From: Nitrospirales bacterium
GTDB lineage: Bacteria > Nitrospirota > Nitrospiria > Nitrospirales > UBA8639
Assembly: GCA_012270585.1 (NCBI GenBank)
Contig: JAAXIB010000027.1
Span: 1 to 64,000, forward strand
Length of the DNA: 64,000 bases
Direction: 5' to 3'
Position 1 is the stretch's first letter; each line of letters begins with the position of its first letter. Positions 17,252 through 46,051 of the stretch are shown here, piece by piece. The notes under the pieces are model-generated. The model did no database searches and was not told the DNA's origin. It saw only the letters and a program-made list of their open reading frames with translations. The position numbers and the translations under genes were made by a program.

Positions 17252-17323
17252 GAGACGTTCTCCACATGGCTTCCGAGCCCCGATCATTTCTGCGGACCGG
17301 GTCAGGGGAAACCGTCAATGTTG

Positions 17324-22508: not shown

Positions 22509-22525
22509 CCGGAATCGTATTCCGG
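22509..22525. promoter_or_regulatory. perfect short palindrome in the icd leader
   Basis: CCGGAATCGTATTCCGG is a 7-bp perfect inverted repeat with a 3-base centre, 39 bases before the icd start. A TTGCCT and a TATTCC spaced by 17 bases overlap it. It could be an operator or a small hairpin in the leader. No regulator gene is adjacent. Confidence 0.3.
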
Positions 22526-22564
22526 CTTTATTCTCACACAACCTTGAACATGGAGGAGCAACTC

Positions 22565-25316: not shown

Positions 25317-27344
25317 ATGGCTGTGACTAAAGAGGGTTTGACGACCCAAACGCTCAGTTTGCCGGAAGAGCTCATCCTGATGCTCCTCAAGGAGGACAAC
25401 GGATACTTTCACCAAGTCCCCGGCTGGGATTTGAACTGCGCCGTCGCCGGCGCCGTCCTCGCGGAACTCTCCCTCCTGTCGCGCATCGATACGGACATGG
25501 AATCCCTGTTCCTTATGGACGAGACAGAAACGGGCGACCCCTCCCTAGACCCCATTCTGAAAGAGATTGCAAGCGAACCGGTTCAACGGAGCACCCAGTT
25601 TTGGGTTGAACGGCTCGCCCCCCGTGCGGAGTCAGTCATTGATTTGACTCTGGATCGCCTGGTTAACCTAAAGATCCTGGAACACCACGACGGCGAGTTC
25701 TGGACGCTGGCTCATACCGGCTGGCAGACGGAACTGTACGCCAATCCCCCGGCAGGCACTGCCGGTCAGTTCATCAAAACGCGGATCAGCAGGGCTATCT
25801 TCATGAACGAAATCCCCGATCCGAGAGACATCATCATCATTTGCCTCGTCAATACGTGCGACGTCTTTCGCTTCATCTTCCAACTCGATGAGGAATCGGA
25901 AAAGCGCATCCGGCTCATCTGCAAGATGGACGTGATCGGCCGGTCCATCGCCGATGCGGTCTCCCACAACCTGGCCGGCCCCTTGCTTCGACATTCCGCC
26001 CTGACCAAGAGGATTCCGGCCGTCTCGCTACGAAAAGTGCTGCTCAGTCCACATGTGCGCAAGGGCAACATTCCCGCGCTCTTTGCGGACCTTGCGCAAG
26101 AGTACGGACCGGTGTTCGAGGTCAGCCCGCCGTTTGCGAAGCCCATGATCTTTCTGGCCGGGTCCGAGACAAACCGCTGGGCGCATAAGCGCGGGCGCAT
26201 GTACCTGAGAGCCAAGGACTATTTTGCCGACTTCGAGAAGGTCTACGGCGCGTCCGGCGTAATGCCTTCCCTGGACGGCGCCGATCATTTCCGGCTTCGC
26301 AAGTCCATGTCGGCGGCGTATTCCCGCAGAAGACTGGAAGGGCAACTGAACCAACTCTATCATCACGCCAGAAAATATATGGCGAATTGGACGGTCGGAG
26401 ACTTCTATACTGCGACGAACATGAGCCGGCAGATGGTCAACGAGCAGCTCTCGTCGCTCTTTGTCAGCGTTGATTCTCAGGATATCTTTGACGATCTGGC
26501 GAAGTATAAGGAACGAGCACTCCTCGTCCACATTGTGAAGCTGCTGCCCAAGTTTATGCTCAGCACTCCGGGCATGAGACGCCGGGCGAAAGCCGTGGAT
26601 ACGCTGCTGGAACGGATCCAGGGCGTCCATACATCCGCGCAGCGTGCTGGTTCTCCACGGAACCTTGCGGACGACTGGCTCAGCCTGCACGCAAGCGATC
26701 CGCAGTTCGTGCCGGAGACGACGCTGCGCTTCCAGCTTTCAGCAGCGCTGATCGCCAGCGTGTACCTGGGCGATGCGTTCAGCTTCGCGTTGTACGCCAT
26801 GGCGTCGCAGCCCGACCTTTACGACAGAATCCAGGGTGAAGCCGATGCCCTGTTCGACAACGGCGATCCGAATGGCGAGGACTTCACCCCGTCCGCACTT
26901 GACGTCACGCACCGCTTCCTCATGGAGTGCCTGCGCATGTACCCGATCGTCCCGATGTCTATTCGAACCGTGATGAATGCGTGCGTGGTCGAGGACTACG
27001 AACTGCCGGTCGGGACAAACATCTATATTGCCCAGACGGCCACGCATTACATGAAAGACGTCTTTCCCGACCCCTTCACATTCGATATCGACCGGTATCT
27101 GCCTCCGCGCAATGAGCACCTCAAGCCCGGGTACGCCCCGTTCGGGCTGGGCACGCACACGTGTCTCGGCTCCCGGTGGCTGGAACTGCAATTGGCCGTC
27201 AACGTGCTGATGGTCGCGCATTACTTCACGATCGAGGTAGCTCCCGCGAGCTACAAGCTCCGGTTCGACCCCCTTCCGTCGATGAAGCCCAGCAAGAAGC
27301 TGAAGTTCCGCATTGCCGGGCAGAGGCGCGAACTGCCCGTCTGA
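25317..27344 (+). CDS. GPP34 (GOLPH3-like) domain fused to cytochrome P450
   Basis: 675 residues from ATG 25317. The frame continues to a TTG at 25275. Residues about 5-220 match the GPP34/Golgi phosphoprotein 3 family: LSLPEELILMLL, VAGAVLAELSLLSRIDTD, ETGDPSLDPIL, and IPDPRDIIIICLVNTCDV. In eukaryotes this fold binds phosphatidylinositol-4-phosphate at membranes. The C-terminal 450 residues are a P450 with ECLR (ExxR) and the haem loop FGLGTHTCLG (Cys 616). The I-helix reads YLGDAFSF and lacks the usual AGxDT. Its place beside sterol genes suggests a membrane-held sterol hydroxylase or desaturase; the position acted on is not predictable. Confidence 0.85.
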   Translation: MAVTKEGLTTQTLSLPEELILMLLKEDNGYFHQVPGWDLNCAVAGAVLAELSLLSRIDTDMESLFLMDETETGDPSLDPILKEIASEPVQRSTQFWVERLAPRAESVIDLTLDRLVNLKILEHHDGEFWTLAHTGWQTELYANPPAGTAGQFIKTRISRAIFMNEIPDPRDIIIICLVNTCDVFRFIFQLDEESEKRIRLICKMDVIGRSIADAVSHNLAGPLLRHSALTKRIPAVSLRKVLLSPHVRKGNIPALFADLAQEYGPVFEVSPPFAKPMIFLAGSETNRWAHKRGRMYLRAKDYFADFEKVYGASGVMPSLDGADHFRLRKSMSAAYSRRRLEGQLNQLYHHARKYMANWTVGDFYTATNMSRQMVNEQLSSLFVSVDSQDIFDDLAKYKERALLVHIVKLLPKFMLSTPGMRRRAKAVDTLLERIQGVHTSAQRAGSPRNLADDWLSLHASDPQFVPETTLRFQLSAALIASVYLGDAFSFALYAMASQPDLYDRIQGEADALFDNGDPNGEDFTPSALDVTHRFLMECLRMYPIVPMSIRTVMNACVVEDYELPVGTNIYIAQTATHYMKDVFPDPFTFDIDRYLPPRNEHLKPGYAPFGLGTHTCLGSRWLELQLAVNVLMVAHYFTIEVAPASYKLRFDPLPSMKPSKKLKFRIAGQRRELPV

Positions 27345-27465: not shown

Positions 27466-28500
27466 CTAAAAGGGTTTGCGGGCCAGAAAACAGTACAACG
27501 GCGTGAAGAGCCCCGACTTGCCGCCCGCGACGTAGGCCTCCGCAGTCCGATCCATGAGGCGGACGACTTCCGCGGACCCCTTCGGAAACAGCCGCAGCAC
27601 CTCGGCCAGCTTCGAGCCCGCCATAAATACTTTGCGGCCCCATGGAAGCCTGCACAAGGCGTTACCGAGGGTCCCATGCCGCGTCTCCATGGGTTGATAC
27701 CATGGTGTGGATGGTCCCTCCTGGACGTCCCGGTCCATTCCCTCGATGACCTGGAATCCCGCCGCTTCGAGCGCATGATTCACTTCCCTGAACGTCGCAA
27801 TGTCCTTCAGCGCAATGCCACGCATGAGTTCCCGCTTGATGGCCCGGTGCCGGCTGTCGTTCGGATCGTACTTGTCCGTCAGACACATCTCCTGACCCCA
27901 GAACAGGGCTCCGGGTTTCAGGATGCGGAAGATCTCCGCGAACGCACGCGGCTTGTCCGGCGCATGGCACGTTGACTCGATGGCATAGCCCCGGTTGAAC
28001 GTGTCGTCCTTGATGGCGCTCATGTCCATGAAGCTGCACGCCTCGTAATCGACCATGTGGTCGAGTCCCGCTTCGGAGTTTAACCTTTTTGCCCTTTCCA
28101 ACTGGATTTTATTGATGTTGATCCCCACAACCCGGACACCGGCCTCCCGGACAACCCGGCGCATCGGGCCTCCGACTCCGCACCCGACATCGACGATTGT
28201 CATGCCCGGGTGCAACTCCAGCTTGGCGATCATCAACCGCTGATGCCGGACTTTGGAGTCCTCCAGACTCTCCTGAGGCGTAAGGGGCGCGAAGTGCAGG
28301 GATTCGCCCCAACCGTAGACCATGAATGGGCTGCAGAGATCGTAGTACTCTTTCACCGTTTCGGTGTGATCGTACCTGTTCACGCCGGCATCCTCCGGCG
28401 TCGCCCGATCAATCCAGCCGTCGAAGTGTTGCACCTGACGGGTGACGTCCTCCCCCCGGTACGCCTCTTTCAGCGCGTGCTGCAGTTTGCCTAGTTCCAA
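27466..28500 (-). CDS. sterol C-24 methyltransferase-like enzyme (copy 1)
   Basis: 344 residues from a TTG start at 28500, with AAAGGAG 10 bases upstream and no internal Met before residue 60. It shows sterol methyltransferase landmarks: the sterol-binding YGWGESLHFAP (62-72), the SAM site VDVGCGVGGP (103-112), VGININ, and YAIESTCHAPDK matching ERG6 YAIExTCHAP. It transfers methyl from SAM to a sterol side-chain double bond. It runs behind the Rieske gene at 28593 on the same strand (93-base gap). It differs clearly from the second copy at 32831, so the two may catalyse successive or different alkylations. Confidence 0.85.
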   Translation of the reverse strand: MELGKLQHALKEAYRGEDVTRQVQHFDGWIDRATPEDAGVNRYDHTETVKEYYDLCSPFMVYGWGESLHFAPLTPQESLEDSKVRHQRLMIAKLELHPGMTIVDVGCGVGGPMRRVVREAGVRVVGININKIQLERAKRLNSEAGLDHMVDYEACSFMDMSAIKDDTFNRGYAIESTCHAPDKPRAFAEIFRILKPGALFWGQEMCLTDKYDPNDSRHRAIKRELMRGIALKDIATFREVNHALEAAGFQVIEGMDRDVQEGPSTPWYQPMETRHGTLGNALCRLPWGRKVFMAGSKLAEVLRLFPKGSAEVVRLMDRTAEAYVAGGKSGLFTPLYCFLARKPF

Positions 28501-28592: not shown

Positions 28593-29618
28593 TCACTCCG
28601 GACGATCCGGATAGAATTGCCTGCAATAGCGTCGATACGCCCCAATTTCCCCGTCCGAGCGGCAGAGCAGCGGGCGGGGCCGATAATGTTTTCTGCCCCA
28701 GATCACGACATCCTGCAACACGTCCCGCTTCTCGGCAGACATGATGATCTTGTTCATGAGCCTGGTGCGCAGGCGTGACGGCAGGAAGCGCATACCCACG
28801 ATCGGCCGTTTCGGTCTCAGTATGCGCCGCACCTGGCTGACCAGCACCAGTTCGACGAATTTGTCGTCGATGGGCGTCGCAAGCACCCACAAACGCGTAT
28901 CCATGTCGATCTCATGCTCGTGAACCTCGACGAACGAATAGCCCAACCCGTGCACATGCGTAACGGCGGACACATCGTACGTGAAGACCTTGATTCCGGC
29001 GATGGTCTGGGTTCGCTTGAAGTCAAAGCAACTCTTGAGGTAGGCGCCGTCGATTGATACCGAACCGATCGCGTTCACGCTGTTGTAGCCGTGCACATAG
29101 CGCAAATGTCCCAAGTCCACGGAGTTCTCGGTCGTTTCCTGAGGATGCCCCGGAAACCGGACGCTCCAGAATTCCAATTCGCTCCAGTCGGTTCCGGTGG
29201 GCGTGTCCGGAAGGTTCCATTGCGGCGGCCGCCCGCCGCATCCCTTCCAGGCAAAGACCATACCCAGAATTTCGCGGGTTTCGAACACCTTCAGTCTGGC
29301 GGTCCTGGGCGCCGGGACGAAGGGCGTTGCTACGCATTGACCGGTGACATCGTACTCGAAACCGTGGAACGGACAGACAAGGCAGCCATTGCGCACGCGG
29401 CCCCCGGCTTCCGGCCCCAATTCGGAGCCCAGATGCGGACAGATCGCTCCGGCCACACAGATGCGTCCTGCCTCGTCGCACCACACGACAATTGGTTCGC
29501 CCAGCCAGGTTTTTTGAAACAGCTTCTGTTTTTCGATCGTTTTGCGGCTGGCGATGAAGTACCAGCCTTCGGGAAACGGAGAAAGCGAGGGGATGCGCTC
29601 GTGTCGACTGGCCGTCAT
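28593..29618 (-). CDS. Rieske non-haem iron oxygenase (sterol-type, copy 1)
   Basis: 341 residues. The Rieske 2Fe-2S ligands are CPH (60-62) and CPFH (82-85). The mononuclear iron site is NSVDLGHLRYVH (D168, H171, H176). The N-terminal FPEGWY and the overall plan resemble the KshA/DAF-36/Neverland group, which oxidise steroid nuclei, including 7-dehydrogenation. It needs a separate reductase, none of which is encoded nearby. A C-7 desaturase or another ring-oxidising role is an inference from context. It leads a two-gene unit with sterol methyltransferase copy 1. Confidence 0.8.
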   Translation of the reverse strand: MTASRHERIPSLSPFPEGWYFIASRKTIEKQKLFQKTWLGEPIVVWCDEAGRICVAGAICPHLGSELGPEAGGRVRNGCLVCPFHGFEYDVTGQCVATPFVPAPRTARLKVFETREILGMVFAWKGCGGRPPQWNLPDTPTGTDWSELEFWSVRFPGHPQETTENSVDLGHLRYVHGYNSVNAIGSVSIDGAYLKSCFDFKRTQTIAGIKVFTYDVSAVTHVHGLGYSFVEVHEHEIDMDTRLWVLATPIDDKFVELVLVSQVRRILRPKRPIVGMRFLPSRLRTRLMNKIIMSAEKRDVLQDVVIWGRKHYRPRPLLCRSDGEIGAYRRYCRQFYPDRPE

Positions 29619-31068: not shown

Positions 31069-32427
31069 TCACGCCTTCCTGAAGCGCCAACCGTACATCA
31101 CGCGTCCGTAAAAGTTGAACCACTTCCTTGCTTCGGAATCCTGAAACGGATAGTCCGCCCCGATCTGTCTCGCCGTCACGAGGCCAGTCACGAAACAGGT
31201 CTCCTGGCTGTTGATCAGCGTGTGGGCGCCACAGTGCCACGTGCGCCGTTTGCCCTGAACGAAGCGAAAGAAAGGGACCAGAATGGCGATGTGAGGCACG
31301 TCGTGCACGATGTGCTGAAACCACCACTTCTTGACGATCTTGCCTTCGTCGATACGGCTGATCGGATTGTAGGTCACCAGGCACGGCTTGTCCGATCGCT
31401 TCGCCCAAGGCTGCTGATTGTGCATGATGTAGGTGATTTCGTAGTTGTCGGGTCGGACACCGTATTGCTCAATGTGGTTGCTCCGGGTGCCGAGCGGCTT
31501 GACATCGTTGTCCGGAAGAATCGAGGCGTCCGAATGAACCACCGTATGGTTGTGCAGTTCACTCTCGTACCGTATCGAAGAGAGAATCCAGCTCTCCAGA
31601 AAGGTCGGTTTATCCAGAAGCATCAGCGTTTGATTCGCGTTGCACGAGAACACGACGTCATCAAACGTGTCCGTGTTTCCGTTCTCGTCCTCTACGACGA
31701 CGTCGGATGAACGCCGGTACACTTTTCGAACCGGTCGGTTAAGGTATATCTTGTCCTGAAAGGCAGCCGACATGTTTTCATAAATACGCCGCGTGCCCCG
31801 GTCCCAGGTTTGCATCGGCGTTGCGGTTTCAATATCGAAGAACTCCAGATACCGGGCAAACAGGGACGCGGGCATGTCGAACACGTTCGTGGCCATCAGG
31901 AAGTTGACGAACATGGGCTTCAGGATCTTGTACCTGAAATCTCCGGAGAACCTCCCGAAGTTGAGAACCGTCCCCATGCTGACGTAGTTGAACGGGTTGA
32001 GCGCATTGAGCAACCTGGACCTAGATCGGTTGAGCCGGCCAAACCATTTCAGACGCCTCAGGAGCTTCTGAAATTTCTGGATTTCCGGTTGCAACTGCCT
32101 CCTGATGTCGGAGTCGAAATCGTGAGCGTAGACGCCGCCGCGGTACTTCACGCTGTAGCTGAACCTGGTATCGACTAGTTCGATACCGTGTTGCCGCATG
32201 AACAGAAGAATGTGGTGGTAGACCGAGGGAATGCACGCGGTGACGGAAATGTCGAACGGAATCGAGGTGCCGTCGTCTTGCGGCATATCGGCCGTCACGG
32301 CATTGCCGCCGACCCGAGCCTGCGCTTCGAACAACCGAAAATCGAATCGATCGGGGTGCTGATGCAGGGCCCAAGCCACCCCCAGCCCCGAGACTCCCGC
32401 ACCGATAATGGCAACCCTTCTCAGCAT
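31069..32427 (-). CDS. FAD-dependent oxidoreductase (COG2907-like)
   Basis: 452 residues from the ATG at 32427. The open frame extends 164 codons further upstream, but that part runs through a decayed gene copy and has no protein character. An FAD-binding Rossmann motif VAIIGAGVSGLGVAWAL is followed by LFEAQARVGGNA. The C-terminal segment TCFVTGLVTARQIGADYPF places the FAD ribityl site. This resembles the predicted amine-oxidase/desaturase-like COG2907 proteins often found near lipid-modifying methyltransferase genes. Within the sterol island it could be a saturase or desaturase of the nucleus or side chain. The reaction is not known. Confidence 0.75.
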   Translation of the reverse strand: MLRRVAIIGAGVSGLGVAWALHQHPDRFDFRLFEAQARVGGNAVTADMPQDDGTSIPFDISVTACIPSVYHHILLFMRQHGIELVDTRFSYSVKYRGGVYAHDFDSDIRRQLQPEIQKFQKLLRRLKWFGRLNRSRSRLLNALNPFNYVSMGTVLNFGRFSGDFRYKILKPMFVNFLMATNVFDMPASLFARYLEFFDIETATPMQTWDRGTRRIYENMSAAFQDKIYLNRPVRKVYRRSSDVVVEDENGNTDTFDDVVFSCNANQTLMLLDKPTFLESWILSSIRYESELHNHTVVHSDASILPDNDVKPLGTRSNHIEQYGVRPDNYEITYIMHNQQPWAKRSDKPCLVTYNPISRIDEGKIVKKWWFQHIVHDVPHIAILVPFFRFVQGKRRTWHCGAHTLINSQETCFVTGLVTARQIGADYPFQDSEARKWFNFYGRVMYGWRFRKA

Positions 32428-32620
32428 CGCCGCGTGCCTCGTTTCGCTGATAGCCCCTACTCTACCATTGCCCGCGACCGTCTGGAACGACTGCCGCAAG
32501 GCCCAGCCGGCTGGCGACGGAATGGGGTTTGCGCTGATACACCGTTGTGTGCCCCCACAACATAGGGGGCAAATGCTATGGCCCCCCTTGGGCGTTGTCA
32601 AGCGCATAATTCCCAATGTT

Positions 32621-32830: not shown

Positions 32831-33865
32831 ATGAGCCGTACGCCCGCGAAACGATCCAACTCCCGTTCCCTCGCGGATCTCACCCCCGATGAAGTGAAAT
32901 CCGCGGTCGATGGATACACCGCGATCTACGACGCCGGCCTGGAGAGCAGAAAAGAGCGTTATCAATCACTCGTCAATCACTACTACGACCTGGTGACCGA
33001 TTTCTACGAATTCGGCTGGGGTCAGTCCTTTCACTTTGCCCCCCGGCGCCGGGGTGAGAGCTTCAAGGCCTCGCTACTCAGGCACGAGCATTATCTGGCC
33101 GATCGGTTGTCCCTGAAACCGGGCATGCAGGTACTCGACGTGGGATGCGGGGTCGGGGGGCCCATGGGCGCCCTGGCCCGCTATTCCGGGGCCAGCTTTG
33201 TCGGCATCAACAATAACGCCTACCAGATCGAGCGTGCGAAAGTGCACACCCGGGACGTCCGGTCGTTATGCCGCTTCATCCACGGCGACTACATGCAGAT
33301 TCCCGAGGATAACGACCACTACGATGCCGCCTTCGCCCTCGAGTCCATGCCGCACGCACCGGACAAGACCGCGGTGTTCCGAGAGATCTTCCGCGTCCTG
33401 CGTCAGGGGGCTTGTTTTACGGGCTGCGAGTGGTGTCTCACTGAGAATTTCGATCCGCGAAACGCAGAGCACCTGCGGATCAAGAACGATATTGTGACGG
33501 GGAATGCGTTACCGGATATCGCCGTCACGTCCGAGATTGGCACCGCATTGCGCATGGCCGGATTCGAACTCCTGGAATCCCACGACCTCGCCCCCGAATC
33601 GCATCCGGAAATGCCCTGGTACCGGTCTTTGCAGGGTCGCGATTTCAGCCTGACGAGTATTCCGCGTACACCTGTCGGCCGCGCCTTGACCAATCTGGCG
33701 TTGAGGGCTGCGGAGAAGTTGCGCGTGGTTCCGGAGGGCACTACCGCGGTCAGCACGCTGTTGAACAGGGGGGCGGATGCGCTGGTCTCAGGCGGCGAGT
33801 CCGGTATTTTTACTCCGATGTTTTTCTTCCTGGCCCGTAAACCCGGCGCTCGGGAGACTCCATGA
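32831..33865 (+). CDS. sterol C-24 methyltransferase-like enzyme (copy 2)
   Basis: 344 residues. Sterol methyltransferase signatures are strong: YEFGWGQSFHFAPR, VLDVGCGVGGPMG (101-113), FVGINNNAYQIERAK, FALESMPHAPDKT, and GCEWCLTENFDP. The NNNAYQI segment closely follows plant and fungal SMT (NNNxYQI). It uses SAM to methylate C-24 of a sterol side chain. It is the first gene of the plus-strand sterol operon. Its last four bases form an ATGA overlap with the next gene. A decayed second copy of its beginning lies just upstream. Confidence 0.88.
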   Translation: MSRTPAKRSNSRSLADLTPDEVKSAVDGYTAIYDAGLESRKERYQSLVNHYYDLVTDFYEFGWGQSFHFAPRRRGESFKASLLRHEHYLADRLSLKPGMQVLDVGCGVGGPMGALARYSGASFVGINNNAYQIERAKVHTRDVRSLCRFIHGDYMQIPEDNDHYDAAFALESMPHAPDKTAVFREIFRVLRQGACFTGCEWCLTENFDPRNAEHLRIKNDIVTGNALPDIAVTSEIGTALRMAGFELLESHDLAPESHPEMPWYRSLQGRDFSLTSIPRTPVGRALTNLALRAAEKLRVVPEGTTAVSTLLNRGADALVSGGESGIFTPMFFFLARKPGARETP

Positions 33866-34986
33866 TGACCTCAGGATCGAATACACCCGCCGGCGCTTCG
33901 ACGCCACCCGTTCTCGTCACCGGCTCGGCCGGGCATGTGGGCGCCAACCTGGTGCGCCGGCTGCTCGACGACGGTGTTCGGGTCCGGGTGTTGCTGAGAC
34001 ACGAGGACAACAACGAAGCATTGGAGGGCCTCGAGGTTGAACGCGCGTTTGCCGACATTCGAGATTTGACGGCCACCAGGCACGCGCTCACGGGCTGCCA
34101 AGGCGTCTATCACTGCGCGGCCAAGGTCTCAACCATCGAAGGTAACCGCGCCCATCGCCGGGAAGTGTTCGAGTGCAACGTGCTCGGTACCCGCAACGTG
34201 CTGCAGGCCGCGCGGGAGGCGGGGGCCGGCCGGGTGGTGGTGACGGGCTCTTTCAGTGCGGTCGGTTACGATTTGGATGATCCGTCCGCTCCTAGCGACG
34301 AGACGATGCAGTTCTATCCCATGGAACGCACGATGCCCTACGAGCGCAGCAAGGCACTCGTCGAGCACGAGTGCTGGAAGGCCGCGGCGAAGGGACAGGA
34401 CGTCGTGGTCGCCACGTGTTGTGCGGTTATCGGCGGCAGTGATTTTTTCCCCTCGCGGTTGGGACGGACCTTGTGCGACTACACCAACCGCAAGATCCGC
34501 GCCTACGTCGACGGGGGGTTCGAGTTTGTCGCGGCACGGGACATTGTCGAAGGGCACCTGTTGTGCATGCACAAAGGACGCTCGGGGGAAAAGTACATCT
34601 TCAGCAGCGAGTACAAAACCATCTCCGAGATATTGGATCTGTTCGAGGAAGTCTCGGGACTCCCGCGACCGTGCCGGAGGATTCCGACCCACCTGATGCT
34701 CGTCTTTTCGGAAGTAGCGAGCTTTTATCTGAGCCGGTTTCACCCGAGCTTTCCCCAGCGTTTCACCCCTGGCGCCATCCGCCTGTTACGAAAGCGCCGT
34801 CACGCCGACCTCGGCAAAGCGAGACGGGAGCTCGGCTATCAGCCGACCAGTATCAGCGCTGCGGTTCGTGAGGCTTACGCCTTTCACTACTACCGCAATG
34901 CGATCACGAATCCGCTCGCGAAACGTCCGTGCGTGACCACCGCGACACCCGTGGACGCTTTCTCTCCGAGCCGGGCCTATGGATAA
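33862..34986 (+). CDS. 3-beta-hydroxysteroid dehydrogenase/decarboxylase, SdmB-like
   Basis: 374-residue extended short-chain dehydrogenase of the 3-beta-HSD family. The NAD(P)-binding motif is VTGSAGHVGANL (19-30) and the catalytic pair is Y160-x3-K164 in PYERSKALVEHE. In Methylococcus, SdmB with the Rieske oxygenase SdmA removes a C-4 methyl. In eukaryotes ERG26/NSDHL does the equivalent oxidation and decarboxylation. The next gene is an SdmA-like oxygenase overlapping by 8 bases, which supports the same role. The start overlaps the methyltransferase stop (ATGA). Confidence 0.85.
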   Translation: MMTSGSNTPAGASTPPVLVTGSAGHVGANLVRRLLDDGVRVRVLLRHEDNNEALEGLEVERAFADIRDLTATRHALTGCQGVYHCAAKVSTIEGNRAHRREVFECNVLGTRNVLQAAREAGAGRVVVTGSFSAVGYDLDDPSAPSDETMQFYPMERTMPYERSKALVEHECWKAAAKGQDVVVATCCAVIGGSDFFPSRLGRTLCDYTNRKIRAYVDGGFEFVAARDIVEGHLLCMHKGRSGEKYIFSSEYKTISEILDLFEEVSGLPRPCRRIPTHLMLVFSEVASFYLSRFHPSFPQRFTPGAIRLLRKRRHADLGKARRELGYQPTSISAAVREAYAFHYYRNAITNPLAKRPCVTTATPVDAFSPSRAYG

Positions 34987-36106
34987 CTCCAAACGGAAAC
35001 TCAATGTGATTCCGGCGCCGGGTGCACCGCCCGGCTTCGAGGAGGCCGGCAACTTGCGCCAGCAAGCCCGCGCCGCGGGCATGGATCCGGATTATTGGTA
35101 CGCGGTTGAGGAAGTGCGCCGCGTCAAACCGGGGACGGTGGTCGAGGTCATTTTCTGGAAACGTTCCATTGCGCTGTTCCAGGGAAAGGACGGCTCGTTT
35201 CACGCCATCGAGAATCGCTGTGCGCATCGCCAACTCAAACTTTCCATGGGCGAGGTGCAAGGCTGCCGGCTCGTGTGCGCCTACCACGGCTGGCAGTACG
35301 ATGGAAACGGGCGCTGTGTCGCGATCCCCCACGACCGCCACGGACGGGGTCTTCCGAAGCTCCCACTCAGAACCTATCCCGTGAAGGTACGTTACGGTCT
35401 GGTCTGGTTGTTCCCCGGGAACCCGGAGCGGGCGGAACTGTGCAGGATTCCGGACATCCCGGAACTTGAGGGACCCGAGCGATGGGCCTGCGAACCGATG
35501 GTCTTCACCTGGGCGGCCCACCACTCGATGGTGATCGACAACGTGAGCGACTTCACCCACGCCCACCTGCACCGTCGATACCGTCCCTTCGAAGAAGGCG
35601 CCATCCTCACCCATTGCGAGACTGACGGCGACAACGTGCACGTGGCCTACGATACAAAGGTCGGACGCGGGCGTATCTCAGGACTGTTTGTCGATCACGG
35701 CCAGGTCGACACCACTCACATGGATCTTTGCTATCAATACCCCTACCAGTGGTCGAACACCGATGACGCGATCAAGCACTGGCTTTTCGTCCTCCCGATC
35801 GATGAGCGCACCACCCGGGCGTTTTTCCTGTTCTACTTCAAGTCGCTGAAGGTGCCCTTGCTGCCGGTACGTATTCCCCGTTTCGCCATGACCGCAGTGT
35901 TGAAGATCTCGAACCGTGTACTCATCGGCCCGTTACTCGCCCAGGACGGCGTTGCGGTCGAAGCGGAGCAGGAAGGTTACGAGAGACATTGGGACGCGCC
36001 TCCCATCGAGTACAATCCGGCGGTACGGGCTTTTCAAAACGTGACCGTGCGCAAGTGGCGGGAGTACGTGGCGCGCGCGACGGAGAATGGCGATGCCGGG
36101 ATCTGA
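34979..36106 (+). CDS. Rieske oxygenase, SdmA-like sterol C-4 demethylase
   Basis: 375 residues. Rieske ligands are CAH (81-83) and CAYH (100-103). The non-haem iron site is in DNVSDFTHAHLHR. In Methylococcus capsulatus the Rieske protein SdmA oxidises the sterol C-4 methyl, replacing eukaryotic ERG25. The pairing with an SdmB-like dehydrogenase is the main basis for this call. A hydrophobic stretch near residue 280-310 (FFLFYFKSLKVPLLPV) may touch the membrane. The start lies inside the previous gene, and the next gene begins inside this one, so translation is coupled. Confidence 0.82.
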   Translation: MDNSKRKLNVIPAPGAPPGFEEAGNLRQQARAAGMDPDYWYAVEEVRRVKPGTVVEVIFWKRSIALFQGKDGSFHAIENRCAHRQLKLSMGEVQGCRLVCAYHGWQYDGNGRCVAIPHDRHGRGLPKLPLRTYPVKVRYGLVWLFPGNPERAELCRIPDIPELEGPERWACEPMVFTWAAHHSMVIDNVSDFTHAHLHRRYRPFEEGAILTHCETDGDNVHVAYDTKVGRGRISGLFVDHGQVDTTHMDLCYQYPYQWSNTDDAIKHWLFVLPIDERTTRAFFLFYFKSLKVPLLPVRIPRFAMTAVLKISNRVLIGPLLAQDGVAVEAEQEGYERHWDAPPIEYNPAVRAFQNVTVRKWREYVARATENGDAGI

Positions 36107-37193
36107 GGCGTACTTCCCATTGGCCGCGCCGTCGGGCAACGCCCTGCTTGAGGCGACGGCCATGGTGTTGGGGTTTGTCGGCGTGTTGTTCCTGGGTTCG
36201 ATGCTCCTGCCCGGACGCCGGGTGACGGGGCCAGAGGTCGAAGGGCAATCAACCACCTACACGCTCAACGGCCTCGCCTTGTTCCTGATGACCGTGATCG
36301 TGGCCTGTCTCGCCCAGGTCTCCGGCTGGTTTTCTCTTTCCGTGCTGCAAACCCACTTCCCAGCCTTGTTCGTGGTGACCAACGTACTCGCATTCGCTCT
36401 GTCCGGCTGGCTGTATTGGCGGGGAGCCCGGCCCCGGGATCCACCACCGGGATTGTGGAAGAGGTTCTTCTTTGGCGTGGAACTTAATCCCACCTGGTTC
36501 GGGGTTGATTTGAAGCTGTTCAGCTACCGCCCTTCCCTCATCGGCCTAGCGCTGTTCAACGCCTCGTTTGCCGTCGCACAGTACGAAACCTACGGCGGGC
36601 TGACCCTGGCAATGTCGCTCTATCAGATCTTCACCTTCCTGTACGTGCTCAACTACTTCCAGTTCGAATACGGCATGATTCACACCTGGGACATCGTCAG
36701 TGAGCGTTTCGGATGGATGTTGATTTGGGGGGATTACGTGCTGGTGCCGTTTTTCTACTGCCTCGCCGGCCGGTGGCTGGTCCACGCCCCTGGCCCGATG
36801 TCTCCCATTGCCGCCACGATGCTCGTCCTGTTGTTCTCCTTCGGCTTCTGGATCTTCCGCGGCGCCAACCAGCAAAAGCACCGCTTCAAGCGGGACCCTC
36901 ACGCCGTGATTTGGGGCCAACCCGCCCGGTCCCTGGACGGGCGCCTGCTGGTCTCCGGCTTTTGGGGCATTGGACGGCATCTCAACTATACCGGTGAAAT
37001 CTGCATCTACCTCGCGTTCACCCTGACCACCGGGGTCGCATCCTGGGTGCCCTACCTGTTACCCGCGTGGCTGGCGGGTCTGTTGTGGCATCGATCGAGA
37101 CGTGATGAGCACCGCTGCCGCGCGAAGTATGGCGAACTGTGGGAACGGTACACGCAGCGGGTGCGTTATTCGATGCTGCCGTTTGTCTATTGA
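36087..37193 (+). CDS. ERG4/ERG24-family sterol reductase (probable delta14-reductase)
   Basis: 368-residue multi-spanning membrane protein of the ERG4/ERG24 family. The C-terminal signature is clear: LLVSGFWGIGRHLNYTGE, then RRDEHRCRAKYGELWERY, and a final YSMLPFVY. The family includes delta14-reductase (ERG24, TM7SF2), delta24(28)-reductase (ERG4) and delta7-reductase (DHCR7). Placement immediately before CYP51, whose product needs delta14 reduction, favours a delta14-reductase using NADPH. The start overlaps the Rieske gene by 20 bases. Confidence 0.88.
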   Translation: MAMPGSEAYFPLAAPSGNALLEATAMVLGFVGVLFLGSMLLPGRRVTGPEVEGQSTTYTLNGLALFLMTVIVACLAQVSGWFSLSVLQTHFPALFVVTNVLAFALSGWLYWRGARPRDPPPGLWKRFFFGVELNPTWFGVDLKLFSYRPSLIGLALFNASFAVAQYETYGGLTLAMSLYQIFTFLYVLNYFQFEYGMIHTWDIVSERFGWMLIWGDYVLVPFFYCLAGRWLVHAPGPMSPIAATMLVLLFSFGFWIFRGANQQKHRFKRDPHAVIWGQPARSLDGRLLVSGFWGIGRHLNYTGEICIYLAFTLTTGVASWVPYLLPAWLAGLLWHRSRRDEHRCRAKYGELWERYTQRVRYSMLPFVY

Positions 37194-37204
37194 GGAGGGT
37201 AGGG

Positions 37205-38614
37205 GTGGAACATCGGTCTCACAGTGCGGCAACCCTGCGTTCGGCGCAACTCTTGCCGCGGCCGGTAAAAGCCGTTCCCGAACTCCCGGGTGGTTGGCCG
37301 TTGATCGGTCATCTGCGGGATTTTCTCAAGGATCCGGTCTCGATGTTGAGCCGCGGCTGGCGCGAGCAGGGCGAGTTCTTCCGGTTCCGGCTCGGTCCCC
37401 GCCAGTTTGTTCTCTTCACCGGACCCGACGCCCACGACTTTTACTTCAGAGCGCCCGAGGATCAGTTGAACGCCAAAGCCGTCTATCAGTTCACGGTGCC
37501 CATCTTCGGACGCGGCGTGGCTTACGACGCCTCCCCCGAGCTCATGGACGAGCAACTGGGGTTTCTGTTTCCGGCGCTCCGCGAAGCCGCGATGAGCAGG
37601 TTCGCCCGCATCATGTTCGAGGAGACGAGGCGGTTCGCAGATGCCCTTGGCGAGGACGGGGAAGTCGATCTGCCGGTCGTGATGAACGAGCTCACCGTCA
37701 AGATCGCCAGTCGTTGCCTCATTGGACAGGAAGTCCGGGATCAGGTGGACACGGGTTTTGCCGAGGCTTATCACGACCTGCAAAAAGGCATCAACACGCT
37801 GGGATTTTTTCTCCCCAGACTTCCGACCGCAGCGCATCGAAGCCGCGACCGGGCTCGGCGAAAAGTGGCCGCACTCTTTAGCCGGATCATGACGGAACGC
37901 CGGCGTTCCGGGGCCTGTCCCGACGATTTCATGCAGACCCTCATGAACGCCCGGTACAAGGACGGCCGCGCGTTGAGCGACGACGAGATTACCGGGATCC
38001 TGTTGACGGTATTGTTCGCGGGCCAACACACCAGCGCGGTGCTCGCAACCTGGACCGGTCTGGAACTCGTGCGGGCGCCGTCATATCTGGCGCGAGTCAG
38101 AGACGAGATGCAAGGCGTCTACCGCGAGGAAGGAACCATGACCCTCGCGAGTCTCAAGCGACAAGTGGCGCTGGAACATGCCGTACGTGAGTGCGAGCGA
38201 CTGCACCCGCCGTTGATCATGCTGATCCGCAAGGTACTCAAACCCGTGCGTTACAGAGACCATATTGTGCCCGCCGGCACCCTGGCCATGGTGTCGCCGG
38301 CGGTCTCTCACCGGTTGCCCCACGTGTTTGCCGACCCGGAACGGTTCTCTCCAGAGCGTTTTGATCCCCCCGCTTGCGAGGACAAACAACACCAGTACGC
38401 CTTGATCGGTTTCGGCGGCGGGAAACACGTCTGCATGGGGAAACATTTTGCTTACCTGCAACTGAAAGCGATCTGGACCGTGCTCCTCGATCGTTTCGTT
38501 TTTCATCTCGACACTGCGTTTCCCGCCCCGAATTATGGGAGTTGGGTGACGGGTCCCGAGACACCCTGCCGGCTTCGCTACCGCCGCCGCTCGCAAGCGA
38601 GCATTGTCCAATGA
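37205..38614 (+). CDS. cyp51: CYP51, sterol 14-alpha-demethylase
   Basis: 469 residues from GTG 37205, chosen because GGAGG lies 6 bases upstream right after the previous stop. CYP51-specific features: YQFTVPIFGRGVAYD (substrate site B' region), FAGQHTSAV with Gly-Gln-His-Thr-Ser at 273-277 in the I-helix, ECERLHPP (ExxR), and FGGGKHVCMGKHFA with haem Cys 410. It oxidatively removes the C-14 methyl from lanosterol-type sterols. No N-terminal membrane anchor is evident, as in other bacterial CYP51s. No ferredoxin or reductase is encoded nearby. Its stop overlaps the next start (ATGA). Confidence 0.93.
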   Translation: MEHRSHSAATLRSAQLLPRPVKAVPELPGGWPLIGHLRDFLKDPVSMLSRGWREQGEFFRFRLGPRQFVLFTGPDAHDFYFRAPEDQLNAKAVYQFTVPIFGRGVAYDASPELMDEQLGFLFPALREAAMSRFARIMFEETRRFADALGEDGEVDLPVVMNELTVKIASRCLIGQEVRDQVDTGFAEAYHDLQKGINTLGFFLPRLPTAAHRSRDRARRKVAALFSRIMTERRRSGACPDDFMQTLMNARYKDGRALSDDEITGILLTVLFAGQHTSAVLATWTGLELVRAPSYLARVRDEMQGVYREEGTMTLASLKRQVALEHAVRECERLHPPLIMLIRKVLKPVRYRDHIVPAGTLAMVSPAVSHRLPHVFADPERFSPERFDPPACEDKQHQYALIGFGGGKHVCMGKHFAYLQLKAIWTVLLDRFVFHLDTAFPAPNYGSWVTGPETPCRLRYRRRSQASIVQ

Positions 38615-41600
38615 GCGGCTCCACTGTTCGGTGCTACGACGTCGTCATCGTCGGCGCGGGTCCGGTCGGCAGCTTGTGCGCGCTCGCTCACGCGCGGAAA
38701 GGCGCCCGGGTGGCTCTGCTCGAAGCAAATCCCAACGTTTCCAAACGAATGGCGGGCGAATGGCTGCATCCACCTGCCGTGCGGATGTTAAGCGAAGTCG
38801 GGATCAGGCTCGATACGCAGCCCCACAGCACCACCGGTAAGGGATTTGTCGTGTTCCCGGAAGACGGCTCGGAGCCGATCGTGCTTCCTTATGCGGAAGG
38901 ACTTCACGGTGTGGCGTGTGAGCATGCGGCGATCGTCTCGAATCTGCGTGAATCGCTCGAGAACGAGCCGGGTGTCGACTTTATTCTCCACGCACGGGTA
39001 CGTGCGGTCGAAGACAAGCAGGTCACGTATTCCTGTAACGGCACCGATAAATCCATTACCGCCGCGCGGATTGTCGGCGCCGACGGCCGGACCTCAATTG
39101 TGCGTCGGTCGTTGGGCTTATCCATAAAACCGAAGACCTGCTCGCGGATGGTGGGGGTCACATTGAGAGGGGTGAGTTTACCGCTGGAGGGTTACGGGCA
39201 TGTGGTGTGTGGTGGACCGGGTCCAATTCTCATGTACCGTTTGGGCGAGCATCGCGTCCGGGTTATTTTCGATGTCCCATCGGACGGCTGGGCACCCGGG
39301 GACCGGATCGGCTTCCTGTCTGACTCGTATGCCGGTGTGTTACCGGAAACGCTCAGACCTGCATTTGTCGAAGCGCTACGGGCTGGGCAATTCCAGGCCG
39401 CGACCAATGAACTGAGCCCGCGCGTCACGTATGGGAGCCCGCATCGAGTCCTTATCGGCGATGCAGCCGGGCACTACCACCCCTTGACGGCAGTGGGAAT
39501 GACCCTCGGTTTCGGCGATGCGCTGACGCTGGCCGAAGGCAAGGACTTTCACGACTTCACCACGAAGCGTTTCCAGGCGACCCACACTCCGGAGCTCCTC
39601 GCCATGGAGTTCTACGAGACCTTTGCCGATCACCGGGCCGAGGCAGTGGCAGTCAGACACGCGATCTACCAGCGTTGGCGGGCCAGTTCCGCGTTCCGCG
39701 ACCGGACCATGCGTTTACTCGCCTGTGAAGACATGTCGCTTACCCGTATGAGTTTCGCGGGTTGCGCGATGGTGGTCCGGGCGGTTGCGGGGACGATTCC
39801 GCGATCCTATGACCAGTTCGCCTGGCGCCGGACCCGCGATATCGTTCAGGCGCTCGCCGTTCGTCTCAGGTGGCTCCTGCGTGGCGTCATACATCTGCGC
39901 AAGGCAAAAGGCGAAGGCGGAGAAACAGACGAGCGAATTCGGGACACCTTGGCTCACGCGCTTCTGGTCTCCATGCCATCGAGCGAGAGTGATACCCGGC
40001 CCATCAGCCCGAGGGAGGTTGCGTCACCCGATGCAGAACCGGCATTGAGGAGCGCGAGCGCGCGCCTGTTACGTCTCCAGTGTGAGGATGGCGCCTGGGA
40101 AGGTGAGATGGTCTGGTGCCCCATGCTCACCGCGCAATACGTGCTGTTGCACCACATCCTGGAGCGGCCGCTCGAGCCCGGTCGGCGTCGACGCGTGTTG
40201 CGCTCCTTCGAACGGACCCGTCTCGAAGGCGGTTTATGGGGTTTGCACGAGCACTCACCACCCAACCTGTTTGTCACCACCCTGGTTTACGTTGCGGCGA
40301 GGTTGCTCGGTATCGAGCGAGATGATCCGTTGGTCGAGCCGGCCCGGCGATTTCTGCAAGCGGAGGGGGTTCTCAATATCCCGAGCTGGGGGAAGTTCTG
40401 GCTGGCGCTCCTCAATCTCTACGACTGGCGCGGGGTCAACGCCATTCTCCCGGAACTGTGGAGCCTGCCGCGCTGGATTGCGTTACATCCCTCGAATTGG
40501 TACTGCCATACCCGGCTCATCTACATGGCGATGGCGGCGATTTACCCAAATCGGTTCCAAGCATCCGTCACGCCCGCGATCGCGTCGTTACGAGAAGAAC
40601 TGTTCCCCCAGGGGTTTGCCAACGTCGATTTTTCCGCGGGCTGCAATCGCCTGCGAGGCGCCGACCTCTACGCGCGACCCAGCGTATGGCTCCGAGCCGG
40701 ATACGGGTTAGCCCGTTTTTTCGAACGGTTTCACGGCAAACGTCTGCGCGCCCGGTGTATGGACGCGATCATCCGGCAGATCAAATGGGAACTGCAAACC
40801 ACCAACCACACGAGCATCTCTCCGGTCAGCGGGCTTCTCAACATCCTTGCCTTATGGCTACGTGATCCAAACGATTCCGACTGCCGCCAGGCTCTCGCGC
40901 AACTGGATGGCTGGATCTGGGAGGACGAAGAGGGTGGAGCACGAGTCACCGGAGCGAGAAGTTCCTCGTGGGATACGGGATTCGCCCTGCAAGCGCTGGC
41001 GACGGTGCCCGAGCTCGACGGGGTTCGAAGCGCCCTCCGGCGCGGAGCCGATTTCCTGCGCCGGGAACAAATCAGTGCCAGCTTTGAAGGATTTCGCGAG
41101 GCCTACCGGAACGACCCGAAAGGCGGCTGGTGTTTTCCAGGGGGATGGCACGGCTGGCCAGTGAGTGACTGCACGGCGGAAGCGATGCTCGGACTTATCG
41201 CCGCCGATCGCGAGGCCACGAGCACGACAATGATCGGCGAAGCGGTTCGGTTCATGTTGCGTGCTCAGAACCGCGACGGCGGTTTTGGCAGCTATGAGGC
41301 GCGGCGCTCCGTGGTCGGTCTCGAATGGCTGAATCCGGCCGAGATGTTCGGCGATTCGATGACCGAGCATTCCTATGTCGAGTGCACCGCGTCTTGCCTC
41401 GTGGCGCTCGCGACTTGTCAGACGCACTTCTCACACGTCACGGACCGGGAGGTGATGAGCGCCATCTCACGGGCTGACGCCTGGCTTCGTCGTACCCAGT
41501 CAAGCGATGGGTCGTGGCGCGGCGTCTGGGGTGTTCAGTTCATCTATGGCACCTTCTTCGGAATCCGGGGCCTGCTGGCCGCCGGGGCGCGTCCCGGTGA

Positions 41601-42000
41601 TCCGGCGCGGCGTTTGGCCTGCCGATGGCTGCTGGACCGTCAGCAGAAAGACGGAGGATGGGGTGAGCACCACAGCGGTTGCTTGACCGGCCGATACGTG
41701 GCGCATGAGGAAAGTCAGGTCATCCAAACCGCCTGGGCAATGCTGGCGCTCCTCGAGGCGGGTGATTCTAACTGGACCGCGATTTCGCGGGGTGCCGCGT
41801 TTTTGCTCAACACCCAGGAGGCGGATGGGACATGGCCCAAGCAAGACATGGCCGGGATCTTTTTCCGCACGGCGCTGTTGGACTACGTCCTGTATCGGCA
41901 GTATTTTCCCCTACACGCGCTCGGTCTCTACGAGCAGCGGCGCCGGGCCCGGCTGGAACTGACGACCACCGCCTCCCTCACCGCCGCCGCGACTGACTGA
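38611..42000 (+). CDS. squalene monooxygenase-oxidosqualene cyclase fusion
   Basis: One uninterrupted 1129-residue frame. Residues 1 to about 450 are a squalene epoxidase: FAD sites VVIVGAGPVGS and ADGRTSIVRR, then LIGDAAGHYHPLTAVGMTLG (281-300), where HPLTxxGMT is typical of squalene epoxidases. Residues about 470-1129 are an oxidosqualene cyclase: WYCHTRLIYM (His232 region), catalytic VSDCTAE with Asp 853, QNRDGGFGSYE, SYVECTAS, QSSDGSWRGVWGVQFIYG and the C-terminal FFRTALLDYVLYRQYFPLHALG. The DCTAE motif, not DxDD, excludes a squalene-hopene cyclase. Val 851, two before the catalytic Asp, is the residue of lanosterol synthases (Ile in cycloartenol synthases). It overlaps CYP51 by ATGA. Confidence 0.93.
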   Translation: MSGSTVRCYDVVIVGAGPVGSLCALAHARKGARVALLEANPNVSKRMAGEWLHPPAVRMLSEVGIRLDTQPHSTTGKGFVVFPEDGSEPIVLPYAEGLHGVACEHAAIVSNLRESLENEPGVDFILHARVRAVEDKQVTYSCNGTDKSITAARIVGADGRTSIVRRSLGLSIKPKTCSRMVGVTLRGVSLPLEGYGHVVCGGPGPILMYRLGEHRVRVIFDVPSDGWAPGDRIGFLSDSYAGVLPETLRPAFVEALRAGQFQAATNELSPRVTYGSPHRVLIGDAAGHYHPLTAVGMTLGFGDALTLAEGKDFHDFTTKRFQATHTPELLAMEFYETFADHRAEAVAVRHAIYQRWRASSAFRDRTMRLLACEDMSLTRMSFAGCAMVVRAVAGTIPRSYDQFAWRRTRDIVQALAVRLRWLLRGVIHLRKAKGEGGETDERIRDTLAHALLVSMPSSESDTRPISPREVASPDAEPALRSASARLLRLQCEDGAWEGEMVWCPMLTAQYVLLHHILERPLEPGRRRRVLRSFERTRLEGGLWGLHEHSPPNLFVTTLVYVAARLLGIERDDPLVEPARRFLQAEGVLNIPSWGKFWLALLNLYDWRGVNAILPELWSLPRWIALHPSNWYCHTRLIYMAMAAIYPNRFQASVTPAIASLREELFPQGFANVDFSAGCNRLRGADLYARPSVWLRAGYGLARFFERFHGKRLRARCMDAIIRQIKWELQTTNHTSISPVSGLLNILALWLRDPNDSDCRQALAQLDGWIWEDEEGGARVTGARSSSWDTGFALQALATVPELDGVRSALRRGADFLRREQISASFEGFREAYRNDPKGGWCFPGGWHGWPVSDCTAEAMLGLIAADREATSTTMIGEAVRFMLRAQNRDGGFGSYEARRSVVGLEWLNPAEMFGDSMTEHSYVECTASCLVALATCQTHFSHVTDREVMSAISRADAWLRRTQSSDGSWRGVWGVQFIYGTFFGIRGLLAAGARPGDPARRLACRWLLDRQQKDGGWGEHHSGCLTGRYVAHEESQVIQTAWAMLALLEAGDSNWTAISRGAAFLLNTQEADGTWPKQDMAGIFFRTALLDYVLYRQYFPLHALGLYEQRRRARLELTTTASLTAAATD

Positions 42001-43756: not shown

Positions 43757-46051
43757 TCATTGAGTCTTCCGGTCGATGGCCATCAGCAAGGGCGGGAGGA
43801 GCAGGAAATCAAGGATCAGCGCGAAGCCGATCGTGAGCGCCACCAGGAGACCGAGCATCCAACTGATCACGAATGCCGACGAAGCGAATACCAGGAAGCC
43901 CAGCACTAGGATCATGGTTGTGGTGAACAGCGCACGACCGACTGACCGAAAGGCGTAGCGCACAGCCTCGGACGAGGAACGGCCCTCGCGACGCGCCTTC
44001 AGATACTTGCTCATGAAGTGAATCGTGTCGTCGACGACCGTGCCGAAGGCGATCGCGGTCACGAGGGATCCGGCGTTCCCCACCTCGCCGTACAGATAGC
44101 CCCAGACGCCGAAGGCCATGGTCGCGGGGATGAAGTTGGGCACGAGGCTGAGGAGGCCGAGGCGCATGCTTCTGAAAATCCCGATCAGGAGCAGCGAAAT
44201 GAGGGCCATGGCAGTGACCGTACCCCACAACATGCTCTTGGCATTCTGTATTTGCATGTGGGCAGAGACGAGGCTGATCCCCGTTGCCTCGATTGCCAAG
44301 TCTGGCGCGTTGGCGCGGAGCCACTCCTGCCCGCGCACGTCGAGTTCGCGCTGCTCCTCGGAGCGCAGCCTGAGCATCGTAACGGTCATGCGCGTGCCGG
44401 ACTTGTCTATGTTGATGCGGTTGTTGAGGTCACTGCCGAAGGGAACCGAAAGCTCGTAGAGCAGCAGGTACTGCGCGGCAAGCTCGGAGTTTTCAGGCAG
44501 CCGGTAAAAGGCCGGGTCGTCGCCGTGCATGTTCTTGTTGAGGCGCTTCATGATGTCTGAAAACGCCTGGACATGCGCCACTTCCGGCTGGGCGCGGTAC
44601 CATTCGACGAAAGCGTCGACCTTGCGAAGATAATCGGGATCGGTGATGCCGCCTTCGCGCCCGGCGCTCAGGGAGTATTCCAGGTTTTCCATGCCGGTCA
44701 GGTTCTCGACCACGAAATCCGTGTCGCGCCGAAACTCGTAACGCTCATCCAAATACTCCAACCAGTTCTCCGTCAGCTCGATGCGGGGGATGCCGGCGAT
44801 CAGGGCGACCGCCACGGCGGCCATGGACCAGAGCAGGAACGTGCGGCGCGCGACGACGAAGGCGCCGAAGCGATCGAAGAAAGCGGTACGCCCGGTGCCT
44901 CCGGGACGCACGCGCAACGGCAGGACCGACAGCAGCGCCGGCAGAAGCGTCATGGAATACACGAAGGCGGAAAGCATGCCGAACGCCACGAGATTGCCGA
45001 GGACCCGGAAGGGCGGAGAGTCCGAGGCGTTCAGGCTGAGGAATCCGATCATCGTCGTGACCGTCGTCAGGAACACCGGCCAGGCATTGTCGCGTAGCGA
45101 TTCGACGATCGCCGCGTTCCGGTCCAGACCTTGTCTCATACCGGACATGATCTTCTCGATGATGTGGACCGAGTCTGCGATGGCCATTGTCATGATGATA
45201 ATCGGAACGCCGGAGTTGACGGCGTTGAGCACCAAGCCGGCCCAGCCGATGACACCCATGGTCGAGCCGATGACGAAGATGAGCACTACAACGAGGGACA
45301 GCGTGCCGAACAGGGAGCGCAGAAGGATGGCGGCGACGCACACGATGACGAGGAATGCGGCCGGCGCGAGAATCCGCATATCGTCGTCGACCGCCTCCGT
45401 CATGACGCGATTCACGAAGACGTCGCCGGTCAGGTGATAGCCGACGTCCGGATGGTCCGCCCGAACCTGGTCCAAAAGGTTGCGGACATAGTCGGTAATC
45501 TCGGCCACCGCGGTGTTCGAGTTCTCGTCGGGTAACGCGAAACTGATCACCACTCCGGCAACGCGTCCGTCGTGGGAGACGAGACGGCCCGCGATGCTGA
45601 TCTCGCCTAACGCAATCCGCTCAATCCGCGCGAGGTCGTCATCGCTGAGCAATCCCGCGTTGTCCACGAGTTGCTCGACGTTCAAGTCGTCCTCGACCGA
45701 CTCGCTGTGATAATAATTGGTAAGGGAGTCGACCCGGGTGGACCAGGGCACGCGCCACGCGGCCTCGGTCAACTCCTCGACGGCGCCGAGCGCCTTGCGG
45801 GTGAAGACCGAGCCCCCCTTGGGTGCGACCGCAATCAGCGCCGCATTGGTCGCCGAATAGGTATCCTCCAAGGCGTCGAATGCCAGGAGGTGAGGATCGT
45901 TCTTCTCTAAGTTGTCGCGCCAGTCGTTGGAGGCGGTGATGAATTGGAGGCCGGCTGTGAGAACCATCATGACCGCCACGGCCGCCACAATGACCAGCCA
46001 TCGGTAGCGCAATATGAACGTGGTGTAGCGATCCAGAAACACGGAGATCAT
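43757..46051 (-). CDS. RND/MMPL-family transporter, candidate sterol exporter
   Basis: 764 residues in the two-fold MMPL/RND layout: one helix (RWLVIVAAVAVMMVLTAGL), a periplasmic loop to about residue 220, a cluster of five helices including IIIMTMAIADSVHIIEKIM, then a second loop and helix cluster (FGTVVDDTIHFMSKYLKAR). The Asp-containing MAIADSVH and TVVDDTIH segments are the proton-relay sites of this family. Relatives include HpnN (hopanoids) and BstA (sterols). Location in the sterol island with TPR and beta-barrel genes suggests sterol movement from the inner membrane. It heads the minus-strand set. Confidence 0.85.
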   Translation of the reverse strand: MISVFLDRYTTFILRYRWLVIVAAVAVMMVLTAGLQFITASNDWRDNLEKNDPHLLAFDALEDTYSATNAALIAVAPKGGSVFTRKALGAVEELTEAAWRVPWSTRVDSLTNYYHSESVEDDLNVEQLVDNAGLLSDDDLARIERIALGEISIAGRLVSHDGRVAGVVISFALPDENSNTAVAEITDYVRNLLDQVRADHPDVGYHLTGDVFVNRVMTEAVDDDMRILAPAAFLVIVCVAAILLRSLFGTLSLVVVLIFVIGSTMGVIGWAGLVLNAVNSGVPIIIMTMAIADSVHIIEKIMSGMRQGLDRNAAIVESLRDNAWPVFLTTVTTMIGFLSLNASDSPPFRVLGNLVAFGMLSAFVYSMTLLPALLSVLPLRVRPGGTGRTAFFDRFGAFVVARRTFLLWSMAAVAVALIAGIPRIELTENWLEYLDERYEFRRDTDFVVENLTGMENLEYSLSAGREGGITDPDYLRKVDAFVEWYRAQPEVAHVQAFSDIMKRLNKNMHGDDPAFYRLPENSELAAQYLLLYELSVPFGSDLNNRINIDKSGTRMTVTMLRLRSEEQRELDVRGQEWLRANAPDLAIEATGISLVSAHMQIQNAKSMLWGTVTAMALISLLLIGIFRSMRLGLLSLVPNFIPATMAFGVWGYLYGEVGNAGSLVTAIAFGTVVDDTIHFMSKYLKARREGRSSSEAVRYAFRSVGRALFTTTMILVLGFLVFASSAFVISWMLGLLVALTIGFALILDFLLLPPLLMAIDRKTQ

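Follow-up and report, generated by a model that had tools for sequence, protein, structure and literature searches.

What is a domain of the GOLPH3 type doing at the front of a bacterial cytochrome P450, beside a cluster of sterol genes and in a cell without a Golgi? Bacterial GPP34 domains are almost without assigned function, and fusion to an enzyme gives a handle on the role of the fold outside Golgi-containing cells. The genes around the fusion also matter to the question of which organisms make and alter the sterols of sponges, compounds that serve as the oldest biomarkers of animals.

A GPP34 domain joined to a P450

The fusion gene is on the forward strand of the window, the whole stretch of 64,000 nucleotides analysed, from a Nitrospira-like genome. 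Its parts, by window position, are:

25317..27344, +, GPP34-P450 fusion gene, 675 amino acids plus stop (Pfam GPP34 95 bits, p450 124 bits)
25353..25964, +, GPP34 (GOLPH3-type) domain, residues 13-216 (Pfam; GOLPH3 by profile and fold)
25698..25709, +, hydrophobic hairpin F128-W129-T130-L131 (alignment and column counts; matches GOLPH3 F194-F197)
26004..27341, +, cytochrome P450 domain, residues 230-675 (Pfam; P450 folds at Z 33-36 over residues 229-674)
26754..26777, +, I-helix ASVYLGDA, residues 480-487 (alignment of 39 fused P450s; same in all phyla)
26925..26936, +, ExxR motif ECLR, E537-R540 (sequence; invariant in alignment A3)
27141..27170, +, haem loop FGLGTHTCLG with cysteine C616 (sequence; C616 invariant in alignment A3)

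The reading frame starts with an ATG; there is an in-frame TTG upstream at 25275, yet homologues align from the ATG. A Pfam search of the ORF matches PF05719 GPP34 over profile positions 1-199 of 201 (E 8.3e-27; cut-off 29.1 bits) and PF00067 p450 over positions 15-459 of 462 (E 1.1e-35; cut-off 22.8 bits), and the C-terminal part has the P450 fold, the ExxR motif and the haem-cysteine loop. The initial annotation, of a GPP34 domain joined without a break to a P450 with ExxR and haem loop intact, agrees with Pfam, with the motifs and with the loci described below; as residues 5-220 give a significant GPP34 match, the absence of such a hit cannot be held against it. AlphaFold2 predicts both domains to be folded, in the whole fusion (54 homologues; pLDDT 84.7, pTM 0.74) and in the GPP34 domain alone (pLDDT 85.6, pTM 0.83). 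Comparison of the models with GOLPH3 and P450s, which the annotation had suggested, bears out both assignments: the P450 part scores Z 33-36 against P450s, and the GPP34 part matches GOLPH3 (9qpq) at Z 19.9, with an rmsd of 2.4 over 196 residues, and Vps74 at Z 18.2, the next unrelated structure scoring only Z 5.1. With GOLPH3 and Vps74 also reached by the domain profile among PDB sequences at E 3.5e-8 to 6.7e-8, the view that the fused domain is a true GOLPH3 homologue is supported by profile and model. Both domains evolve under purifying selection (omega 0.16-0.27), and with median identities of 74% for GPP34 and 71% for the P450 the former is as constrained as the latter.

Within its genus the fusion is present in 11 of 14 genomes, the window's own counted, one copy (G004) being frameshifted; outside the genus no GPP34 above cut-off was found among 396 sampled genomes of the phylum. 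Across 84,980 species genomes a scan gave 178 loci, of which the best 80 were analysed and 98 weaker ones left out. Those best 80 come from at least eight phyla (Nitrospirota, Chloroflexota, Gemmatimonadota, Latescibacterota, Acidobacteriota, Pseudomonadota, Binatota and Verrucomicrobiota), with some from unclassified genomes, and so a search for the architecture in other bacteria, proposed at the outset, returned the same fusion throughout: GPP34 and P450 are contiguous in 80/80, with a few loci broken by frameshifts or contig ends. A close match is present in 39 of 298 sampled Gemmatimonadota genomes, and contigs carrying the fusion reach 5.2 Mb. The fusion is no artefact, and the Nitrospira-like genome is not its only carrier. 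MAG names such as SB06, RHO, IRC, COS, Aplysina bin and the like presumably derive from sponge studies. Carrier names point to sponges as the source, and those of the jk18x type belong to Caribbean Ircinia (PMC9531527). The wider family, the cross-phylum spread, the Rieske and flavin-oxidase partners elsewhere and the finding that most carriers have no sterol synthesis go beyond the initial annotation, and a literature search for GPP34 with P450 or sponge, with most subscription journals outside its coverage, gave nothing relevant.

Functional readings here are all drawn from sequence, structure prediction and genomic context. The one preferred, with belief and doubt in about equal measure, is that the GPP34-P450 of sponge symbionts performs a membrane-docked sterol oxidation step within a tailoring pathway. 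The P450 would oxidise a sterol, as one step of the pathway, that is made in the cell in Nitrospira-like hosts and that most other carriers would take from the sponge or from neighbours. The GPP34 hairpin would dock the P450 on the cytoplasmic membrane without PI4P and so let it reach a bilayer-resident substrate, and RND/MMPL transporters would move the products of the pathway.

The P450 and its altered I-helix

The initial annotation had pointed to an I-helix (YLGDAFSF) without the usual acid-alcohol pair, an observation that not only holds for the window but is conserved throughout the subfamily. In SVY-LGDA the pair is absent, Y and either a gap or L standing there instead, and the helix has lost one residue against relatives, a change seen in every subfamily member with the region intact, across phyla. 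Most GPP34-P450 paralogues have GLDT or GLHT, and the sister group has AGHY-LGS or AGHY-TGS where the window's subfamily has ASVY-LGDA. Since DT or HT persists in relatives with this architecture, the loss of the pair and of one residue is derived, and it makes the subfamily well suited to testing how P450 chemistry runs when the acid-alcohol pair is missing.

A non-classical P450, acting as peroxygenase, isomerase or desaturase or with substrate-assisted proton delivery, is an unlikely explanation that nevertheless deserves serious weight. The tyrosine in place of the acid, the missing threonine and the shortened helix, set against relatives that retain DT or HT, argue for it; the invariant D486 two residues further on could substitute, and several genuine monooxygenases, CYP107A1 among them, have no I-helix threonine, which counts against it. 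Such chemistry is compatible both with a sterol substrate and with the preferred reading of a docked sterol-oxidizing enzyme.

At the top of the fold matches CYP46A1, CYP170A1 and a CYP51-ferredoxin are tied, P450s for fatty acids and terpenes being no more than about 1-3 Z units away, and all PDB matches of the P450 part are distant (16-20% identity in structural alignments). The cholesterol 24-hydroxylase CYP46A1 gives the top structural score (Z 35.8 across 402 residues), at 16% identity; being tied with P450s that have other substrates, this match speaks against the sterol reading rather than for it and is no test of substrate. With CYP51, including the CYP51-ferredoxin of Methylococcus, the fusion shares the P450 fold, a sterol gene cluster and the joining of a P450 to another domain, but its I-helix has no HT, identity is about 18% in structural alignment, and the ferredoxin is a different partner domain at the opposite end. 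The fused P450 was considered as a CYP51 and rejected on its I-helix without HT and on a match to the window's own CYP51 that is only short, at 34%; that CYP51 is a separate gene.

The GPP34 domain and the membrane

In GOLPH3, PI4P is bound by W81, R90, R171 and R174, and a hairpin, residues 190-201, enters the membrane (PMC4414131; PMC13408441). In 21 subfamily sequences the equivalents of W81, R90, R171 and R174 are P/A, A/V/I/G, E/D and I/V/L, so that 0/21 retain any of the four, the alignment being less certain in the W81 region. The net charge of the domain is -16 here and about -20 on average, compared with +3 for the GOLPH3 core. The hairpin has F-W-T-L where GOLPH3 has F-L-L-F, and its conservation across 53 sequences is about 90% or higher. 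The fused domain is thus like GOLPH3 and Vps74 in fold, sequence profile and hydrophobic hairpin, and unlike them in its replaced PI4P residues, in being acidic rather than slightly basic, in working without a Golgi and in being joined to an enzyme.

These features divide the earlier proposal that the GPP34 domain holds the P450 on the membrane. GOLPH3 homology, the retained hairpin and the position of the domain, which occupies the place of the N-terminal anchor of other P450s, speak for an anchor, and no clear transmembrane helix was found in the fusion protein (the top 19-residue mean is 1.91, in one of the helices of the GPP34 fold). Attachment by way of PI4P or anionic lipid fares badly, with all four PI4P residues replaced in 21/21 and a net charge of -16. 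On the sequence evidence the domain plausibly docks on a membrane, PI4P and anionic lipid find no support as its ligands, and docking would be hairpin-based and PI4P-independent. In support of docking, GPP34 domains in the same bacteria are also joined to membrane helices. The counter-point is that the acidic charge is unfavourable for an anionic bacterial membrane, and the GOLPH3 hairpin works jointly with PI4P (PMC13408441), which counts against docking by a hairpin alone.

The same acidity permits another analysis, in which GPP34 would be a protein-protein adaptor whose acidic face would bring the P450 together with the Rieske protein, the methyltransferase or basic cytosolic tails of transporters, the membrane being secondary. 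This seems rather improbable. The negatively charged groove of GOLPH3 recognizes basic tails of its clients, the glycosyltransferases (PMC13408441), the domain has a net charge of -16 to -20, and it remains highly conserved with its PI4P residues gone; but the near-invariant F-W-T-L hairpin is unexplained by an adaptor role alone, and no conserved basic-tailed partner was found in this analysis. The preferred reading keeps the hairpin as the putative docking element.

Partners, substrate and horizontal spread

The neighbours of the fusion in the window are:

27466..28500, -, sterol methyltransferase (Pfam Sterol_MT_C; relatives adjoin the fusion in 40/80 loci)
28593..29618, -, KshA-like Rieske oxygenase (Pfam Rieske, KshA_C; PDB KshA E 8e-23; relatives in 44/50 carriers)
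31069..32433, start approximate, -, flavin amine-oxidase-like protein (Pfam Amino_oxidase; relatives in 38/50 carriers)
32831..33865, +, second sterol methyltransferase (Pfam Sterol_MT_C)
33862..37193, +, SdmB-like, SdmA-like and ERG24-type genes (sterol cluster context)
37139..38614, +, CYP51-like P450 with AGQHT (Pfam; motif)
38611..42000, +, squalene epoxidase-oxidosqualene cyclase fusion, one ORF (Pfam SE, SQHop_cyclase)
43757..46051, -, MMPL-family RND transporter, candidate sterol transporter (Pfam MMPL 9.1e-37, Sterol-sensing 5.1e-7)

Sterol clusters like this one are already known from sponge symbionts (PMC9531527, PMC7074536 and PMC10070321), and the epoxidase-cyclase fusion of a Melophlus symbiont is MsbE (PMC7074536). 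These CSG/msb clusters share with the context of the fusion a distribution over many phyla, horizontal transfer, SMT, CYP51, ERG24 and the epoxidase-cyclase fusion; unlike the tailoring set around the GPP34-P450, they are genes for de novo sterol synthesis, and the available parts of the same three papers make no mention of a GPP34-P450 or of a cyclase-free tailoring set. To the known symbiont clusters the present set adds a tailoring branch that is cross-phylum and mostly without sterol synthesis.

Of 50 carriers, 44 have the KshA-like Rieske protein (58-87% identity), 38 the flavin oxidase and 38 Sterol_MT_C (SMT). The 12 without an SMT match include the complete chromosome L051, which has no OSC match either and in which about 16 kb hold the fusion, the Rieske gene and the flavin gene. 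An OSC of the window's kind is present in only 8/50, which makes an acquired sterol the probable substrate. At E 1e-30, 30/50 have no cyclase match at all, and therefore a hopanoid is not the general substrate; weaker cyclase matches, near 30% identity, are probably squalene-hopene cyclases. Incompleteness of draft MAGs can explain some missing cyclases; the single-chromosome genomes L051, L075 and L112 lack the window-type OSC too, having weaker cyclase matches or none. Carriers without sterol synthesis hint at a reworking of sterols from host or neighbours. In the flanks of the best 80 loci the Rieske gene occurs 43 times, SMT 40, AcrB-type RND transporters 34, the flavin oxidase 32 and MMPL 18. 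One MMPL near a fusion has a sterol-sensing match at E 3.8e-15, and the sterol-binding BstA of Methylococcus is of the same transporter type (PMC10942540). No convincing conserved small ORFs (ferredoxin, sterol carrier) were seen near the fusion. The flavin oxidase (L044:12438-13787; window 31069-32433) is 76-88% identical across phyla and more conserved than the P450.

The substrate might instead be a non-sterol lipid, such as a hopanoid, fatty acid, carotenoid or polyketide, with the adjacent Nitrospira-like sterol cluster incidental. OSC is absent in most carriers and SMT in some, fatty-acid and terpene P450s come close to the top fold matches, and LkcE, the solved structure closest to the flavin partner in the PDB, acts on a polyketide. 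This is nonetheless improbable to a greater degree, as SMT with its sterol-specific C-terminal domain and the KshA-like Rieske gene adjoin the fusion in several phyla. Sterol oxidation remains the preferred reading, and its fuller form is advanced tentatively, with belief a little below doubt: that in sponge symbionts of at least eight phyla a horizontally shared gene set oxidizes and alkylates sterols its carriers do not make, with a non-canonical P450 on a PI4P-independent GOLPH3-type membrane domain. On that view some ‘sponge’ sterols would be made jointly by host and symbionts.

For horizontal transfer, CysS from the window served as vertical control. Its identity to the CysS of 45 non-Nitrospirota carriers is 39-57%, compared with 60-78% for the fusion among aligned copies, and as the cross-phylum identity of the fusion exceeds that of CysS, the gene has moved horizontally. 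The Chloroflexota copy L046 is 78% identical to the window's fusion with CysS at 54%, while the copy of a congener, L042, is at 70% with CysS at 85%, the congener's fusion being the more distant. A tree built from 82 full proteins requires the phylum label to change 17 times, the minimum being 8. Several copies sit on 2.5-5.2 Mb contigs, so misbinning is not the cause of the spread. The chance that the fusion or its cross-phylum spread is an artefact of assembly or binning is negligible: the records are mostly MAGs and the G004 copy is frameshifted, but such long contigs already contradict it, all 80 best loci are contiguous, the CysS sequences of these genomes diverge as far as expected, and selection is purifying on both domains. 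No vehicle for the transfer was identified, since phages gave no match, none of 10 pattern matches in viral contigs was a relative, and plasmids had, among the matches listed, ordinary P450s at <30% identity, none covering 80% of the query. Between the window and the fusion gene of L037, dS is 0.32 in GPP34 and 0.13 in the P450, an inequality that hints at recombination within the gene.

In a tree of GPP34 domains all 39 of the 39 P450-fused copies form one clade (SH-aLRT 99) amid bacterial stand-alone copies, which fits one fusion event followed by duplication, and on this sequence evidence the fused domain descends from bacterial stand-alone GPP34. Eukaryotic GOLPH3 was rejected as ancestor, all fused copies nesting among bacterial ones in a tree whose single eukaryotic row, typed partly from a PDB chain, is a long branch. 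Bacterial stand-alone proteins, such as SCO4440 of Streptomyces, which is linked to wall-deficient cells (PMC12402492) and is absent from the tree, are single-domain, unlike the fusion, whose GPP34 nests among those of the same symbionts. Carrier genomes hold both stand-alone GPP34 proteins and further GPP34-P450 paralogues. The stand-alone ones (L117-L136; about 215-240 amino acids, with a conserved FLWVFRSRRYP-like stretch) occur in most non-Nitrospirota carriers, their neighbouring genes including no consistent partner, and the paralogues (L036:1429-3498, L137, L144-L156) have canonical DT/HT I-helices and occur in several copies per genome. A second, independent type of GPP34 fusion is found in alphaproteobacterial carriers (L138:1345-2715, +; L139:2179-3384, +; L140:1147-2331, -), in which the domain is joined to 4-5 predicted membrane helices, a part without a Pfam match.

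Next to the sterol cluster, the ORFs at window positions 15002-24799 include an aconitase, two that we take to resemble ATP-citrate lyase subunits and another that is presumably a monomeric isocitrate dehydrogenase, genes that possibly serve carbon fixation by the reverse TCA cycle.
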